The position numbers were made by a program, and so were the translations under genes. Below the pieces are notes generated by a model, which worked only from the letters and a program-made list of their open reading frames with translations, had not been told where the DNA came from and ran no database searches. Positions 5,526-55,371 of a stretch of 64,000 bases of DNA are shown here, piece after piece. Each line of letters opens with the position of its first letter. Position 1 is the first letter of the stretch. Origin of the DNA: Spirosoma sp. 48-14 (GTDB lineage: Bacteria > Bacteroidota > Bacteroidia > Cytophagales > Spirosomataceae). The stretch is from assembly GCF_001898575.1 (NCBI RefSeq), contig NZ_MKUD01000006.1:168459-232458 (forward strand), written 5' to 3'.

Positions 5526-5533
5526 ATAATGTC

Positions 5534-5578
5534 TGATGTAGGATACATGATGTATTGTACATTCTGTATCCTACATCA
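5534..5578. terminator. Hairpin after amtB
   Basis: Arms 5534-5554 and 5558-5578 pair over 21 bp with two mismatches and a 3-nt loop. No long T run follows. The rest of the 5579-5733 gap shows no gene. Confidence 0.6.
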
Positions 5579-5733
5579 CACGTAGTATATTATACATCAA
5601 CTGAGCCACAGGCACCCTGTCTAGCCATAATGTCTGGCAGTTTTATCTGTGGTTTTGTTGTACTCATGGAGCCGCTCCCACTTGGGGGCGGTTTCCTGTT
5701 TTATAGAAATGGTCCTACACGCCTTGCCATATT

Positions 5734-6096: not shown

Positions 6097-6146
6097 AGAA
6101 TAAGTGAGAGAGTAAAACTTATTGACTTAATCTCAATAGTTTAATT

Positions 6147-6218
6147 AACCGCAAAGGCGCGAAGACGCAAAGAAATACACTATTGTGAAATACTTTGCGT
6201 CTTCGCGCCTTTGCGGTT
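6147..6218. repeat. 26-bp inverted repeat with 'cgcaaag' words
   Basis: Arms 6147-6172 and 6193-6218 are perfect complements around a 20-nt loop. Each arm is built from the word GCAAAG/GCGAAG repeated (AACCGCAAAGGCGCGAAGA...). It lies just beyond the mtaB stop, and it could terminate mtaB transcription. Confidence 0.85.
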
Positions 6219-6228
6219 GATGACTAAT

Positions 6229-15034: not shown

Positions 15035-15114
15035 TTTTCGACAGGATTTACAGGATGAATAAGATTATCCTTGATGATAAATAATCCTGTTCATCCTGTA
15101 AATCCTGTCGAAAA
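15035..15114. repeat. 25-bp inverted repeat, 'acaggat' words
   Basis: Arms 15035-15059 and 15090-15114 are perfect complements around a 30-nt loop. The arm contains ACAGGATTTACAGGATGAA, that is, a short word repeated. It lies between the ArsC/Spx-like gene and the haemoglobin gene. Confidence 0.9.
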
Positions 15115-23499: not shown

Positions 23500-25908
23500 A
23501 TGATTCGTTTCTGCGCCATCTTGTTCTGCTTTTTTCTTACGTTAAGTAGATCATCTGTACTTATTGCCCAGCCTAATTCGCTCCGCATCCGTATCCAGGA
23601 AGCCAACCAACAGGCTGTTATAGGGGCAACCCTGCAACTAACCGACCGAGCCGATTCGACCCGTAAACTGTATGCGCTGAGTGATACGGCAGGCCGGGCT
23701 GCGTTTATCTTAACGCCTGGTCATTCCTACCGACTCCTGGTGACTTCGGTGGGGTATAAACCGCTTCGAAAAGAGCCTTTGCTAACCTCAACGCAGCCGC
23801 TATTGACTTTGGTAATGACACCCGACAATGTACAACTGGGGGCTGTGTCGGTAACGGCTGCTAAACCTCTGGTGCGTCAGGAAGACGATAAGATGATTGT
23901 TGACCCGGAGCCAGTGGCGGCTACAAGTACCAGTGCTTACGAATTGCTGGAAAAAACGCCGGGGCTTTTTCTGGACCCGGATGGGAACGTGTATTTGAGC
24001 AGTACGACCCCCGCTACGATTTACATCAATGGGCGGGAACAGAAAATGAGTGCCGCCGATATAGCGTCCATTTTGAAAAGCCTGCCACCGAATAGCATAG
24101 CACGTATGGAGATTCTTCGAACTCCTTCGGCGCGGTATGATGCCAGTAGTAGTGGTGGGGTCGTGAATATTGTTCTGAAGAAAGGAATTAGCCTTGGGAT
24201 GACCGGGTCCGCCAACGCGGGTTTTAACCAGGGGCGATTTGGTAATCAGTTTGTTGGGTTGAATCTGAACAATAGCCGGGGCAAACGGACATCCTATCTG
24301 AATTTGAATTATACCCACCGGAATTCGTATGAGCAGATTCTGACGAATCGAACATTTTCGCCCGATTCCATTTTGCGGCAGGATGCCTATACAACGTACC
24401 CGGCTCATGTTTTTTACACCGGGTATGGCTTGGGATTCGAGCTTTCCCGGAAATGGGATTTAAATCTGGATGGGCGCTTTGCCTGGAATCAGTCGTCGTC
24501 ATCGGCTGCCAATCGGAATCAGATCAGCCAGCTTAGTCTCAATCGATTGGTGTCAGATAATTTGAATCTGACAGATGGATCTAATCGCATGCTTTCGATT
24601 AGTCAGGGAGCAAACCTGAAATATAAAATCGATACGCTGGGGTCTGAATGGATTACCGATGTGTCATACAACTACACCGGCAACCGGGGCGATCAGGTAT
24701 TCTCAACACAGTACTCGTTGCCTGAACGCCCCGAGACGCGTGGTGATGGCAACTTTGATTCGCAACGCCAATTGATTGCCCTGCAAACCGACTTAAAATA
24801 TAAGCTCACCAAAACAATTACGGTTGAAACAGGGGCCAAACTAACCTGGCAGCAATTCACTAGTCGGCAAGATTATTTTACGGTGATCGCGAATCAGCGG
24901 CAACCAAATGGTAGCCGGACGAATGCCTTTGATTATCGGGAAAATATCAATTCGGCCTATGCCCAGGCATCCAAAACAATCGGGCCATTCCTGCTGAAGG
25001 CGGGTCTTCGGTTGGAGAACACGAACATGAATGGGCATCAGCGAATACCGACAGATACGTCATTTAAAATTAACCGGACCGATTTGTTCCCGTATGTATA
25101 CCTAAGTCGTCGGGTTGCTAAAATTGCCGGGTATGAACTACGGAGCTATCTGGTGTATCGGCGATCCATTACCCGTCCTGCCTACGATTACCTGAATCCC
25201 GCAGCGCGTTATGTCGATCAATACCTGTACGATCGGGGTAATCCGGCGCTGCGACCTCAATTCACCGAAAATTACGAGATAAACATCAGTGTAGAAGATC
25301 GGCCTTTGTTTGCGATCGGGCAGAATAATACCCGTGATATTTTTACGAATGTCGTGTATCAGGACCCCATCAATCGGAGTATTGCGTACCGAACGTACGA
25401 CAATCTGGGTACGAATAAAGAGACGTATTTTCGTGTGCTGGCTGGTATTCCGCCCATCAAGCGGTATTTCTTTGTCGTGGGAGCGCAGTACAATTACAAC
25501 GAGTATTCGGGGGTTTATGAAAATCGTCCGCTAAATTTTAAGCGCGGAAGCTGGTCATTTTTTACCTATCATTCGCTCAAGATCGACACCCGCTCTACCT
25601 TAACTCTAAATGGATTTATTCGTACGAAAGGCCAGCTTCAATTTTATGAGTTGAGCAATTTCGGGGCACTCAACCTGAGTTTGAATCGGAAATTTATGCA
25701 GGACAAACTGATGGTAACGTTGACCGCGAATGACATCTTTTTTACGAACTTTTACGACTTTACCCTTCAGCAAGGATCGGTATCGGCCAATGGATTACGT
25801 CGAAACGATACCCGCCGATTCGGATTGACATTGCGGTATAACTTCGGGCTCCGCAAAAAAGAAGAACGGGTCAATATGTTCAACATTGACCCGCAGCCGC
25901 AGAATTGA
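23500..25908 (+). CDS. TonB-dependent receptor-type outer-membrane barrel
   Basis: This 802-residue protein has a signal peptide (MIRFCAILFCFFLTLSRSSV...AQ), a carboxypeptidase-regulatory-like domain (residues about 25-110) and a plug domain with TPGLFLDPDGNVYLSS and TPSARYDASSSGGVVNIVLKKG. A long barrel follows of the outer membrane beta-barrel type seen in Bacteroidota receptors without a SusD partner. It ends in a polar tail (NMFNIDPQPQN) and not in the aromatic residue usual for barrels. It may be an importer of siderophores, peptides or the like; the substrate cannot be read. The stop codon begins a 31-bp inverted repeat. Confidence 0.85.
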   Translation: MIRFCAILFCFFLTLSRSSVLIAQPNSLRIRIQEANQQAVIGATLQLTDRADSTRKLYALSDTAGRAAFILTPGHSYRLLVTSVGYKPLRKEPLLTSTQPLLTLVMTPDNVQLGAVSVTAAKPLVRQEDDKMIVDPEPVAATSTSAYELLEKTPGLFLDPDGNVYLSSTTPATIYINGREQKMSAADIASILKSLPPNSIARMEILRTPSARYDASSSGGVVNIVLKKGISLGMTGSANAGFNQGRFGNQFVGLNLNNSRGKRTSYLNLNYTHRNSYEQILTNRTFSPDSILRQDAYTTYPAHVFYTGYGLGFELSRKWDLNLDGRFAWNQSSSSAANRNQISQLSLNRLVSDNLNLTDGSNRMLSISQGANLKYKIDTLGSEWITDVSYNYTGNRGDQVFSTQYSLPERPETRGDGNFDSQRQLIALQTDLKYKLTKTITVETGAKLTWQQFTSRQDYFTVIANQRQPNGSRTNAFDYRENINSAYAQASKTIGPFLLKAGLRLENTNMNGHQRIPTDTSFKINRTDLFPYVYLSRRVAKIAGYELRSYLVYRRSITRPAYDYLNPAARYVDQYLYDRGNPALRPQFTENYEINISVEDRPLFAIGQNNTRDIFTNVVYQDPINRSIAYRTYDNLGTNKETYFRVLAGIPPIKRYFFVVGAQYNYNEYSGVYENRPLNFKRGSWSFFTYHSLKIDTRSTLTLNGFIRTKGQLQFYELSNFGALNLSLNRKFMQDKLMVTLTANDIFFTNFYDFTLQQGSVSANGLRRNDTRRFGLTLRYNFGLRKKEERVNMFNIDPQPQN

Positions 25909-25975
25909 GACTAGAACGTGGATTGTCAGGATTCGTTAAAATCTACGAATCCTGACAATCCACGTTCTAGTCTCA
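25906..25975. repeat. 31-bp perfect inverted repeat with a stop codon at each end
   Basis: Arms 25906-25936 and 25945-25975 are exact complements around an 8-nt loop. The outermost bases on both sides are the TGA stops of the two converging genes (25906-25908 plus; 25973-25975 minus). Confidence 0.95.
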
Positions 25976-26527
25976 TTTGCCCTGGTAAATAGGCCGTGTA
26001 AATGGCGGTTGAAGGAGCAGATGGAACGAATTCTCATCTCCCAGTACGACCGCCCGACGCAGGTCGTTTTCGGCTTGAGGTAATTGCCGAAGTTGAATCC
26101 GGGCTAATGCCCGCCAGCGATAGGCATCAGGTTGCTCATCGTGGTAATGCCATACCGCTTTGTCGAACTCCCGGAAAGCCAACTGAAATTCGGCCGTGTG
26201 GTAATAGGCTACGCCCCGATCCAGGTAGCATTCGGCCAGGGTATTATCCCGGCTGATGGCTTCGGTCAGGTCGTAAATAGCTGAGTAATAATTCTCCTGA
26301 AAAAGCTGACACTTACCCCGATAGGCATACGCAATAGCTGATTTCGGGTGTTGCCGAACGGCTTTATCGAAGTATGAGTAAGCGTCCGAAATATTCCGTT
26401 GCTGAACCAGATCGATGCCTCTCTGAAATCGTTTGAGGTCTTTTTCAGAGACAGTGTCGTGGTCAACCAGGAAATACCGGATGGTCATATAAATTCCAAA
26501 AAGCAGACATAATAAGGTAATTTCCAT
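25973..26527 (-). CDS. Membrane-anchored TPR protein
   Basis: The 184-residue product has an N-terminal hydrophobic anchor (MEITLLCLLFGIYMTIRYFLV) and about three tetratricopeptide repeats, such as SAIAYAYRGKCQLFQENYYSA, AECYLDRGVAYYHTAEFQLA and DAYRWRALARIQLRQLPQAENDLRRA. TPR proteins mediate protein-protein contact; no partner is evident. The repeats probably face the cytoplasm or periplasm depending on anchor orientation, which I cannot fix. Its stop codon forms the right end of a 31-bp inverted repeat. Confidence 0.75.
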   Translation of the reverse strand: MEITLLCLLFGIYMTIRYFLVDHDTVSEKDLKRFQRGIDLVQQRNISDAYSYFDKAVRQHPKSAIAYAYRGKCQLFQENYYSAIYDLTEAISRDNTLAECYLDRGVAYYHTAEFQLAFREFDKAVWHYHDEQPDAYRWRALARIQLRQLPQAENDLRRAVVLGDENSFHLLLQPPFTRPIYQGK

Positions 26528-27244: not shown

Positions 27245-29323
27245 TTATTCGTTAACCAGGCTTGGTTCGATCCAGCGGTCATCTTCCCGAATGAGTTCGA
27301 TCAGTTCATCGACGGCACGATCGGCAGGTACCGATTTCTTGATAACCTGCTGCCCTCGGTATAGCGATATTTTATCACGGCCAATACCAACATAACCATA
27401 ATCTGCGTCGGCCATTTCGCCAGGACCGTTAACGATACAGCCCATAATACCAATCTTAACTCCTTTCAGATGGTCGGTCCGTTGGCGAATCATGGCTGTC
27501 GTTTCCTGCAAGTCGAACAACGTACGGCCACAGGACGGGCATGAGATGTACTCGGTTTTGGTAATACGTGTCCGCGCAGCCTGCAAAATCCCAAACGACA
27601 GGTTGTTAAGTGCTTTTAGCTCGCTGGCTATCACCTGTGGTGTCGGGTTCTCAAACCCGACATTTTGCGTCAGCAATTCATGTCGGGTTTGAGAACCCGA
27701 CACCACAAGTGACAGTATTATACCATCCCCCAGTCCATCGATCAGCAAACCACCCACATCGGTAGCGGCATACAACGGAATATCTTCAGAAGGAATAGCT
27801 GAATAGCCGCGTTGAACGACTACGGGAAGAGTAAGTTCCTGATTGATCAGCTCTACAAATAATCGACGCAGTTCGGGCATCGCATGGGCATTGTCGGTTG
27901 TGACCAGCAGAACAACGGTTTGATCGTTTCGTAACGCAGTGAGCAAGTCGGGAGATACTTCCGAAAGCGACAGCTGGACGAAATTCAGGCGAGGGTGTAA
28001 GGGGGCTTTTGTTATTTGAGCCTGTGTATACTCACTGGCTGTGAGCAGAGGGAACGCATTGGTCTGATCCGCAACTGTTTGCCAGCTAGCATAGTCAAGA
28101 ATCTGTTTCAGGCCATTCGGTAGCATGAACGCTGCGGGTTGCGAACCCAGATATATATAATCGGCACCCAGGTCGTTCATCCGCCATTTGTCTGGCTCCG
28201 GCAGATAAAAATGACCGATGGGTTTAAGATCATCATGTTGACGGACGGGAATCTGGCTGAAATCAGCAATGACCCGTGGCACATTCTGTCCACCAAAATT
28301 AGCGACCTCATGCGTTGTCCGACGTGTATATTGAAATGGATTGATCGGATAGCTGGTAATTTCCGGAATCGGTTTGCTTTCGGCTGCCCGATGGGTGTAC
28401 CGATCAATCAGCGCCTGAGCAACGGGTGCTTCGCGTTCGGGTTCTTCGGTGAGCGATACCCGAACCGTATCGCCAATGCCATCTTCCAGCAAAGTACCAA
28501 TCCCCAATGCCGATTTGATGCGGCCATCTTCAGCTTCACCGGCTTCGGTTACGCCTAGGTGGAGCGGATATGGTTTTAACCCTTCCTCATCCAGTCGTTG
28601 AACAAGTAAACGATATGCCTGTACCATCACCTGTGGGTTACTTGACTTCATCGACAGGACGATGTTGTAATAATTCTCGTCCTCACAAATCCGCAGAAAC
28701 TCCAGCGCCGATTCCACCATACCAACGGGTGTATCCCCATACCGACTCAGAATGCGGTCGGAGAGGGAACCATGGTTAGTGCCAATTCGCATAGCGGTAC
28801 CATACTCCTTACATATCCGTACCAGCGGCAGAAACTTATCCCGAATTCGTTCCAGTTCCGATGCATAGGCCGCATCAGTATAATCGATAAATTCAAAGCG
28901 TTTGCGGTCGGCATAGTTGCCCGGATTGATGCGAACTTTCTCAACAATACGCGCGGCCAGTTCGGCAGCATTGGGGGTAAAATGAATGTCGGCAACGAGC
29001 GGTGTGGTATAGCCCCTTGCCCGGAGTTCCTTACGGATATTCTCCAGGTTTTGTGCTTCTTTTACACTGGGGGCTGTGATGCGTACATACTCGCAGCCAG
29101 CTTCAATCATGCGGATGGTCTGTTCTACGGAACCGAGTGTGTCCATCGTATCCACCGTTGTCATCGACTGCACACGGATTGGATAATCGGAGCCCAGCGG
29201 TACATCGCCTATGTTGACCGTAACCGTTTTTCGGCGGGTGTATTGTGTTAGCGAAGGCGTGTAAAGAACAGGAGAACCAGATAAGTTGGCTGATTGTGAA
29301 GGGGTAATCAACGAGTCGAGCAT
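27245..29323 (-). CDS. ispG: 4-hydroxy-3-methylbut-2-enyl diphosphate synthase (long form)
   Basis: This 692-residue Fe-S enzyme makes HMBPP from methylerythritol cyclodiphosphate in the MEP isoprenoid pathway. It is the three-domain form also found in plants and Chlamydia: TIM barrel (VQSMTTVDTMDT...VADIHF...VRINPGNY), central extra domain, and C-terminal Fe-S domain with CPSCGRTLFDLQ and MGCIVNGPGEMADADYGY. I chose the ATG at 29323, since a -7 box sits at 29353-29360. Residues about 538-565, between the LLIDGLGDG segment and LNNLSFGILQAAR, are encoded by an inverted repeat and look like an in-frame insertion. Confidence 0.95.
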   Translation of the reverse strand: MLDSLITPSQSANLSGSPVLYTPSLTQYTRRKTVTVNIGDVPLGSDYPIRVQSMTTVDTMDTLGSVEQTIRMIEAGCEYVRITAPSVKEAQNLENIRKELRARGYTTPLVADIHFTPNAAELAARIVEKVRINPGNYADRKRFEFIDYTDAAYASELERIRDKFLPLVRICKEYGTAMRIGTNHGSLSDRILSRYGDTPVGMVESALEFLRICEDENYYNIVLSMKSSNPQVMVQAYRLLVQRLDEEGLKPYPLHLGVTEAGEAEDGRIKSALGIGTLLEDGIGDTVRVSLTEEPEREAPVAQALIDRYTHRAAESKPIPEITSYPINPFQYTRRTTHEVANFGGQNVPRVIADFSQIPVRQHDDLKPIGHFYLPEPDKWRMNDLGADYIYLGSQPAAFMLPNGLKQILDYASWQTVADQTNAFPLLTASEYTQAQITKAPLHPRLNFVQLSLSEVSPDLLTALRNDQTVVLLVTTDNAHAMPELRRLFVELINQELTLPVVVQRGYSAIPSEDIPLYAATDVGGLLIDGLGDGIILSLVVSGSQTRHELLTQNVGFENPTPQVIASELKALNNLSFGILQAARTRITKTEYISCPSCGRTLFDLQETTAMIRQRTDHLKGVKIGIMGCIVNGPGEMADADYGYVGIGRDKISLYRGQQVIKKSVPADRAVDELIELIREDDRWIEPSLVNE
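27631..27712. repeat. 33-bp inverted repeat in frame inside ispG
   Basis: Arms 27631-27663 and 27680-27712 pair over 33 bp with one mismatch (27635/27708) and a 16-nt loop; 27636-27663 and 27680-27707 pair perfectly. Each arm is itself a small hairpin: GTGTCGGGTT, a 4-base loop, AACCCGACA. The same small hairpin recurs at 47296-47319. Confidence 0.92.
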
Positions 29324-29352
29324 ACAGATAGCGGCAGCGCCGTTTGACCTTA

Positions 29353-29360
29353 CAAAGGTA
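29353..29360 (-). promoter_or_regulatory. -7 box of ispG
   Basis: The minus-strand reading TACCTTTG matches TAnnTTTG, about 30 bp ahead of the ATG at 29323. This argues against the alternative start at 29365. The other bases of 29366-29602 show no gene. Confidence 0.5.
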
Positions 29361-29602
29361 CGCAAAAACCGCGTTTTCGGTTTGGTATCGGTTGATGGGA
29401 AAACGTATGGTTTTGCCTAAACGTTCGCGTAGAAAAGCATCCTATCAACAACCATAGTAGTATGGTTATTATGTTGGTCGATTCTCTTGCACACCTGATT
29501 CAAGAAACAAAAGTCTCTTAAATCAGTTAATTACATTCGAAATGAAGCCTGTTATAAACGGTGTTTATAGATACTTCAACCGAAATGTAAATTTTAAACG
29601 TT

Positions 29603-29986: not shown

Positions 29987-30120
29987 ACCGCAATACCTTG
30001 CGGCTCACGACCAGACGGTTCTAGTGCCTCAATGGGATAAAGATTGGATCAGTGTAGGCTTGATCCAATGGACGATAATTATTGCTGACGCGAAAGAGAC
30101 GTAAGGTATTGCGTCTCTAC
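29983..30120. repeat. Nested inverted repeat with both stop codons in the outer arms
   Basis: Outer arms 29983-30007 and 30096-30120 pair imperfectly around the shared core CGCAATACCTT. An inner hairpin pairs 30043-30051 with 30061-30069 (ATTGGATCA). The plus-strand TAG (29984-29986) and the minus-strand TAG (30117-30119) sit at mirror positions. Confidence 0.8.
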
Positions 30121-40830: not shown

Positions 40831-40932
40831 AAAAAAAGAGCGAAAGAGTGAACGAGTGAACGAGTGAAGCTATCCAGCAGTTTATCGCTCATTCACTCGT
40901 TCACTCTTTTACTCTTTCGCTTTTTGCTCTTT
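40831..40932. repeat. Inverted repeat of 'gagtgaac' words ahead of fabG
   Basis: 40831-40870 contains GAGTGAAC-type words in tandem, and 40886-40932 carries the complementary words, giving an imperfect stem of about 40 bp. It ends eight bases before the fabG ATG, so a folded form would occlude the start of fabG. Confidence 0.8.
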
Positions 40933-47275: not shown

Positions 47276-47340
47276 TGCCTTTCGTGGTTTTCGTGGTGTC
47301 GGGTTTGAGAACCCGACACAATGAGGTTTCTCAAACAGGA
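47276..47340. repeat. Repeat cluster sharing the ispG element
   Basis: GTGGTGTCGGGTT followed by AACCCGACAC forms a small hairpin at 47296-47319 that matches the mini-hairpin found twice in the ispG insertion. The flanks hold TTTCGTGGTTTTCGTGG (47280-47296) and GAGGTTTCTCAAAC (47323-47336). The right side abuts the EamA gene end at 47348. Confidence 0.75.
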
Positions 47341-54255: not shown

Positions 54256-55281
54256 ATGAATATAGGAGATAAAGTCCGGTTGCTCCGGGCAAAAGAACAG
54301 GGCGTTGTATCGCGGTTTTTACCAGGCGATATGATTGAGATCGAGATTGAAGATGGCTTTCGGATTCCGGTGATGCGTTCGGAACTGGTACTGGTTTCGC
54401 CCCTGGAGGCCGAACGTCTTCTGAAAGCGAATCCGTACGATCCTCAGAAAACCATAGCCCCTGCTGCACCCACCATTCTGGCCAACCAGGGGATTTATCT
54501 CGCATTCATTCCCGTCAACGATCGTGAGTATACACTGCACCTGATCAATAATACCGATTGGGAATTTCCGTACCTGATCGGCGAAGAGACGGCGGCTGCG
54601 GGGGGAGGGGTTCAGTTTCGGGGTTTGCAGAGCGGGGTTCTGAAACCTAAATCGCAGCAGAAAATGAATGATCTCTATGCCCACGCCCAGTTTGATGCCT
54701 GGCCAACTTTTGTGGTGCAGGGACTCTGGTTTCGGGTGGGAAAGACGTCGTTGCGCCAGCCATTTATGAAACGCTTTAAGGCAAGGGCGGCTACTCTTTT
54801 TAAAGAGAAAGTAAAGACACCTATTCTGAATCAACCCGGTTTCCTGACTCAACTGGATGCCGATACAGCTGAACCCGCACCGCCTGTAAGCGCAGCCAGT
54901 AACCGGCCTCCACAACTCAAAACGATTCGGCCCGACGAACTGAAAGCGGAGATGCTGAAGCCCAAAGCGGAGCAAACCAGCGTCTCGATTGAACGTCCTA
55001 CATCCGTCGTGGACTTACATGCCGAAGCGCTTCTCCCCAAAGGAACGGGCAATCGTACCCCCGCCGATTTGTTGAAGCTGCAACTGGAAACCTTCGACAA
55101 AGCGCTCGAAAACGCTATTGCCAGTGGCATGAGCGAGATTACGTTTATTCACGGTGTAGGAAGTGGTGCATTGCGAACCGAACTGCACAAGCGATTGGGC
55201 AAGCATCCGAACGTCCGATTTTTTGAAGACGCTCAAAAGCAGAAGTTTGGCTATGGAGCCACGAAGGTGACGATTAAATGA
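54256..55281 (+). CDS. DUF2027 and Smr-domain protein
   Basis: This 341-residue protein begins with a KOW/Tudor-like segment (NIGDKVRLLRAKEQGVVSRF) followed by the DUF2027 region. It ends with an Smr nuclease-like domain: VVDLHAEALL, then ITFIHGVGSGALRTELHKRLGKHP. Smr domains of this type bind or nick nucleic acids, in bacteria also at collided ribosomes. The exact role in this phylum is not known. A basic Pro-rich linker (about 200-255) joins the parts. A repeat follows its stop. Confidence 0.85.
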   Translation: MNIGDKVRLLRAKEQGVVSRFLPGDMIEIEIEDGFRIPVMRSELVLVSPLEAERLLKANPYDPQKTIAPAAPTILANQGIYLAFIPVNDREYTLHLINNTDWEFPYLIGEETAAAGGGVQFRGLQSGVLKPKSQQKMNDLYAHAQFDAWPTFVVQGLWFRVGKTSLRQPFMKRFKARAATLFKEKVKTPILNQPGFLTQLDADTAEPAPPVSAASNRPPQLKTIRPDELKAEMLKPKAEQTSVSIERPTSVVDLHAEALLPKGTGNRTPADLLKLQLETFDKALENAIASGMSEITFIHGVGSGALRTELHKRLGKHPNVRFFEDAQKQKFGYGATKVTIK

Positions 55282-55290
55282 ATAATGAAT

Positions 55291-55354
55291 AATGGGTAAT
55301 GAACAATGAATAATGATCGACGGCAGCCTCATTATTCATTGTTCATTACCCATT
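55291..55354. repeat. 26-bp perfect inverted repeat between convergent genes
   Basis: Arms 55291-55316 and 55329-55354 are exact complements with a 12-nt loop, made of AATGAATAATG-type words and followed by T bases. It lies 17 bases before the trpB2-like stop and 9 bases after the Smr gene stop, so it probably terminates both. Confidence 0.9.
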
Positions 55355-55371
55355 TTTTCATTCTCATAGAG

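Follow-up and report, generated by a model that had tools for sequence, protein, structure and literature searches.

A REP is a hairpin with the tetranucleotide GT[AG]G at its foot, and an inverted pair of REPs forms a REPIN (PMC6006769, PMC3116915, PMC8266576). Double-foot REPs belong to TnpAREP subclass 2.4, which PMC6006769 describes with the motifs NH[IFV]H, WQ, and YIxNNP and reports from Bacteroidetes among others; in this subclass, REPs also occur in frame within their own tnpAREP genes. In-frame intragenic REPs of the GTAG and CGTC families, including dimers that add 20 to 30 residues, are described in PMC3733652, where the recB genes of X. campestris and X. oryzae are said to carry REPs that differ from each other but occupy roughly the same position. 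RPE-4 and RPE-6 are grouped there with repeats of the CGTC type, which according to that source have no dedicated transposase.

The window examined here, a stretch of 64,000 nucleotides from Spirosoma sp. 48-14 (genome G000), contains a palindromic element inside ispG (Table 1). Like REPINs or BIMEs with their RAYT (TnpAREP), the family to which this element belongs shows a GT[AG]G foot, a short hairpin, inverted pairs, and dispersal, and it flanks a REP-associated tyrosine transposase. It differs from the known REPIN/RAYT systems in its foot, GTGG, in a family found here in Spirosoma alone, in having an isoprenoid enzyme as host, and in a genome of its own without a cognate RAYT. The likeness to the intragenic GTAG and CGTC REPs of PMC3733652 lies in the in-frame REP dimers that add residues; however, many of the genes listed in that source encode DNA repair and RNA enzymes of other phyla, whereas in Spirosoma the host is a metabolic gene in three clades of one genus. 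The initial annotation had instead compared the element to Rickettsia palindromic elements. Both are in-frame palindromes in coding genes with extra residues that appear to be tolerated, but the Rickettsia type is defined by a CGTC tag, the lack of a dedicated transposase, and several host genes, whereas the Spirosoma element has a GTGG tag and a RAYT within its genus, and ispG is the only recognized host gene of the copies collected here. The GTGG foot, the inverted pair, and a RAYT of the genus with the same hairpins make the anatomy that of a REPIN, and a grouping with the Rickettsia elements is not supported. REP/RAYT systems of Bacteroidetes are included in PMC6006769. The literature found on Spirosoma palindromic repeats contained nothing about this element, judged by title, and that on IspG insertions consisted only of Porphyromonas papers matching the word ISPg. 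Among the matches listed for REP with intragenic or TnpAREP, or with Cytophaga or Bacteroidota, titles looked unrelated. The ispG insert is a further case of the in-frame REPs already in print, with an unusual threefold recurrence.

Table 1. Coordinates of ispG and of the repeat elements in the window
Feature	Position	Strand	Remark
ispG (long type)	27245..29365	minus	706-aa frame from TTG; Pfam GcpE, 1.2e-121
In-frame insert of 72 nt, codons VVSGSQTRHELLTQNVGFENPTPQ	27635..27706	minus	72 nt in 3/3 carriers, 0 in 33 others
REPIN: GTGG-hairpin, 18-nt spacer, hairpin-CCAC (70 bp)	27637..27706	unstranded	
REP half 1: GTGG + TGTCGGGTT CTCA AACCCGACA	27637..27662	plus	
REP half 2, inverted copy of half 1	27681..27706	minus	
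Asymmetric centre GCGTCAGCAAT	27667..27677	plus	Orientation relative to gene opposite to that in G008
Second family member in window: lone intergenic hairpin, one GTGG foot	47293..47318	plus	

Translation of ispG likely starts from the ATG at position 29323, giving a protein of 692 aa, and residues counted from there place the insert at 540 to 563. The element thus contributes 24 codons (72 nt), fewer than the roughly 28 extra residues first assigned to it. The reading frame stays open through the insert without a stop, and the encoded peptide spans VVSGSQTR...NVGFENPTPQ. The linker from GGLLIDG to FGILQA measured 59 aa in G000 versus 38 aa in the sister genome G001. The insert site is this variable linker, or hinge, directly ahead of the Fe-S domain of IspG. 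In the C-terminal domain, Cys595, Cys598, and Cys629, which we take to be the Fe-S cluster ligands, were invariant among 46 aligned sequences. The 70-bp REPIN gave a 72-nt insert, whose extra 2 bp have no proven source.

The inverted repeat consists of two arms of 36 nt each (27628-27663 and 27680-27715) with 94% complementarity. The initial annotation, which described a repeat of 33 bp with one mismatch, was correct in placing a palindromic repeat in the ispG frame. Its core is formed by perfect 22-bp hairpins at 27641-27662 and 27681-27702, in inverted order with starts 40 bp apart. A third perfect copy was found at 47297-47318, in agreement with the recurrence that had been claimed at 47296-47319. 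The pattern TGTCGGGTTNNNNAACCCGACA (at most 3 mismatches) had 4 matches in the window versus 0.01 on average over 100 shuffles; the fourth match (39820, 2 mismatches) is probably due to chance. In the whole G000 genome, 20 places matched with at most 2 mismatches versus 1 for the reversed control pattern, and a shorter, looser pattern gave 27 places versus 4 for the control. These results support the earlier proposal of an in-frame insertion by a palindromic element, which is dispersed in the genome and leaves the frame intact. The REP unit has the consensus GTGG + TGTCGG[GT]TT NNNN AA[CA]CCGACA, with the tetranucleotide at the foot of the hairpin as in REPs, and the ispG element joins two such units in inverted order into one long hairpin, as in REPINs. 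The computed fold of the insert as a single strand was a 32-bp stem of -66.1 kcal/mol (z = -14.4).

IspG was found in 36/36 genomes of the genus, and the insert was present in three of them (G000, G008, and G026), an occurrence in separate Spirosoma lineages that the initial annotation had missed. The linker from GGLLIDG to FGILQA was 59, 60, and 63 aa long in these carriers, respectively, versus 35 to 44 aa in the 33 others. The two outcomes that would have refuted the initial annotation did not occur: 33/36 homologues of the genus lack the segment, and the hairpin recurs elsewhere in the genome. The extra segments of the three carriers share V[VL]SGSQTR...VGFEN[PL]T[PA]Q in the same reading frame, and the central peptide is different in all three. 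Among 80 IspG loci from named genomes, of which 67 were measurable and 13 were not, the distance from LLIDG to LQA was 30 to 43 aa in 64 and 52 to 54 aa in 3, and the insert motif was not found in these three longer linkers.

In a tree built from a codon alignment of the 36 ispG genes, the three carriers fell into three clades, each with element-free sisters: G000 with G001 and G015, G008 with G022, G003, and G032, and G026 with G016. Forcing the carriers together cost 242 lnL, and a single clade of carriers was rejected (AU test, p = 0.001). The 180 bp on each side of the linker in G000 had identities of 0.86/0.89 to G001 versus 0.73/0.80 to G008, and those in G008 had 0.81/0.87 to G003. These flanks are clearly nearest to those of their own sisters, which rejects a transfer of the element between G000 and G008 by local recombination. 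The rejection covers this pair; in G026 the left flank does not decide, with G016 and G008 tied at 0.73 each, and the right flank is at 0.84 to G016 versus 0.82 to G008. At fourfold sites compared between G000 and G008, the arms were identical at 12/12 positions versus 105/288 (36%) elsewhere in ispG (P = 5.5e-6), a gene that is near saturation at such sites for this pair. Comparing G026 with either of the other two carriers gave 9/9 identical arm sites. The asymmetric centre is flipped between G000 and G008. The G026 element has an eroded centre and 4 to 5 of 54 arm positions changed, and this insertion looks the oldest of the three. A comparison element whose flanks are common to G000 and G001 has kept its centre and shows 2 arm differences, unlike the ispG elements. 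With a common origin rejected, the arms identical, and the centre inverted, it is most likely that one type of mobile element came into the same IspG hinge about three times. Most simply, these would be three insertions that differ in age.

Hairpins of the family pattern were detected in 20/36 genomes of the genus, at 1 to 77 copies each, and the control patterns gave 0 in all. Full dimers with the centre GTCAGCAA occurred in 9/36 genomes at 28 places, again with 0 for the controls. Among 390 genomes drawn from the order, the strict dimer pattern was positive in 6, all Spirosoma. It was found in 0/372 genomes of the order outside the genus, an absence that is no proof because 12/18 Spirosoma genomes of the same draw were also negative. 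The family is multicopy, dispersed, and mostly extragenic, as 78/85 hairpin clusters had no frame spanning them by at least 60 codons on each side. Such an open frame spanned the other 7/85 clusters, and 3 lay in a recognized gene, in every case ispG; this set is partly biased, since the ispG loci were chosen on purpose and the G026 copy was found through ispG alone. In the unbiased dimer set, 2/28 lay in ispG. Frames over the elements in L069, L070, L078, and L104 were not accepted as genes, as judged by eye: a signal-peptide-like start lies after the element in L069, the L104 frame runs opposite to the flanking genes, and the frames in L070 and L078 are both anonymous. The flanks of REPINs were often palindromic, with 16/24 dimers, including nonindependent ones, complementary at the first flanking base versus 7.3 expected, and this weakened outward. 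In L099, L205, L213, L316, and others, REP flanks were palindromic over up to 12/12 bases. It is as if the element enters the tips of existing hairpins.

Y1 transposases were present in 29/36 genomes of the genus. One RAYT clade, named here for its sequence MGLRNR (178 aa, at least 69% identity to P0001), was found in 6/36 genomes (G003, G014, G018, G022, G026, and G035). Two of its proteins exceeded the cutoff of NCBIfam REP_Tyr_transpos (REP-associated tyrosine transposase; 3.3e-31 and 1.6e-30) and also matched Pfam Y1_Tnp. All 6 genomes with the clade bear hairpins, and the clade occurred in 0/16 hairpin-free genomes. Exact-family GTCGG hairpins lay within 190 bp of the MGLRNR gene at 4/6 loci, on both sides at 2, and the remaining 2/6 loci had weaker GTGGTGTC- or GTCAGG-type repeats alongside, judged by eye; the G026 locus is broken off by a contig end. 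A cognate RAYT therefore exists within the genus, in 6/36 genomes, with the same REPs beside it at 4/6 loci. The proteins contain NHIH and YIHNNP or YIHTNP, which fit TnpAREP subclasses 2.4 and 2.6 about equally; in place of the WQ of subclass 2.4 they have WE or WT, and double-foot hairpins are present.

No MGLRNR RAYT was found in 14/20 hairpin-bearing genomes, including G000 and G008, and G026 is the only one of the three ispG carriers with this clade. The copies in these 14 genomes therefore either are orphans or owe their mobility to another RAYT or to one since lost. Orphan REPs, without a cognate RAYT, are known. G000 had only distant matches to the clade (29 to 33% identity), none of them a same-genome cognate RAYT, and a family hairpin adjoined none of its six Y1 loci. 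This absence limits the claim that the MGLRNR RAYT moved the window copy.

We consider it highly probable that a REPIN inserted independently into the ispG linker of G000, G008, and G026, mobilized by a RAYT, with the frame kept and the enzyme working. The element is a REPIN, a nonautonomous pair of inverted REP sequences, most likely mobilized by a RAYT of the MGLRNR clade, a single-strand Y1/HUH transposase. It inserted into the variable linker just ahead of the Fe-S domain, each time presumably in a single step, and the same kind of insertion most likely occurred independently in the three lineages. Because 72 nt keeps the frame and the frame stays open, the predicted product is an IspG that carries a 24-residue extra loop and still works, a loop that would be tolerated and not useful. 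In a structure model of IspG (692 aa, 46 aligned sequences; mean pLDDT, 85.5), pLDDT was 93 at residues 531 to 540, fell to about 51 at 541 to 560 within the insert, and was 81 and then 95 over 561 to 580; the drop suggests that the insert probably forms a flexible loop. In the genome pair G005/G004, no clean filled and empty site was found (9 G005 loci tried, 3 placed in 400 kb of G004). One placed element was common to both genomes; at the other two sites longer stretches had been replaced, which left no readable target duplication. For want of a clean site pair, we infer the boundaries of the ispG insertion.

A single ancestral insertion into ispG, kept in three lineages and lost elsewhere, would have required the arms to be homogenized by gene conversion or by template switching within the hairpin. 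Such template switching would invert the centre as well, and an inverted centre is also seen between G000 and G018 at the kdsA-kdsC site. The co-varying arms of G026 (GTGC..GCAC instead of GTGG..CCAC) fit this history, and weak REP-like stretches were present in the linkers of G034 (12/16, p = 0.006 uncorrected, suggestive by itself but not after correction for 33 species) and of G016, the sister of G026 (11/16, p = 0.08). However, about eight in-frame losses, counted on the tree, would be needed, and the element with shared flanks in G000 and G001 is unlike those in ispG. We therefore regard one ancestral insertion as quite improbable. A native variable linker that resembles the hairpin by chance has practically no standing. 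Linker length does vary natively among the 33 noncarriers, but the exact 22-bp hairpins are common to other genome copies and 0.01 matches were expected in the window; the genome copies, the shuffles, and the 33 insert-free homologues refute this reading.

If the insertion were selected and the site therefore reused, the production or activity of IspG would be tuned by the added loop or by the 32-bp RNA stem. The very stable RNA stem counts for selection, and among the elements in hand only those in ispG lie inside a recognized gene, with 2/28 there in the unbiased set. However, 33/36 species manage without the insert and the centre peptide differs in 3/3 carriers, which makes such selection unlikely. 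Independent, RAYT-mobilized insertion remains our preferred explanation. Three insertions in one linker exceed what mere tolerance predicts; either the ispG site is targeted or something favours it. We suggest only tentatively, and with more doubt than confidence, that the linker might be a true REPIN hotspot, arising from target recognition or from repeated selection of the hairpin in the mRNA. It might thus be a recurrent docking site of the RAYT, and palindromes might hold fixed places across the genus while their sequence is swapped between species.

Other palindromes were found at recurrent places. At the kdsA-kdsC junction (genes named from sequence; L341-L368), a long inverted repeat lies directly upstream of kdsC in 25/28 Spirosoma genomes examined. 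An ispG-type REPIN occupies this junction in G000 and G018 and is degenerate in G035, and the palindromes at the site mostly have unrelated sequences from one lineage to another, which holds even for the sister genomes G000 and G001. Several side observations were made in the window. When 47280-47330 was compared with L220, G001 had a different palindrome with 26-bp arms (CGCAAAGGCG) in place of the hairpin at 47297. A palindrome with 34-bp arms and GTGGATTGTCAGGATT...AATCCTGACAATCCAC at 25903-25978 lies at the very end of an 802-aa frame (23500-25908); it is perhaps another GTGG-footed family, and G001 has a diverged palindrome at the matching place. Further long palindromes of several types lie at 6144-6221, 15035-15114, 40835-40925, 55277-55357, and 5531-5581, and some of them, judged by eye, look similar to the palindromes that other species have at the kdsC site. 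Outside any REPIN, the REPIN centre motif ATTGCTGACGCGA is also found at about 30085-30100; there it lies within an inverted repeat that is imperfect (29989-30113), and G001 has retained it.

Most REPs are intergenic. In ispG, by contrast, REPINs apparently entered the hinge of one metabolic enzyme in frame on three independent occasions, which amounts to a natural experiment for which element-free sisters are available. The ispG case allows tests of how a RAYT chooses its target, how ribosomes translate an mRNA with a very stable hairpin, and how a protein gains a loop from mobile DNA.
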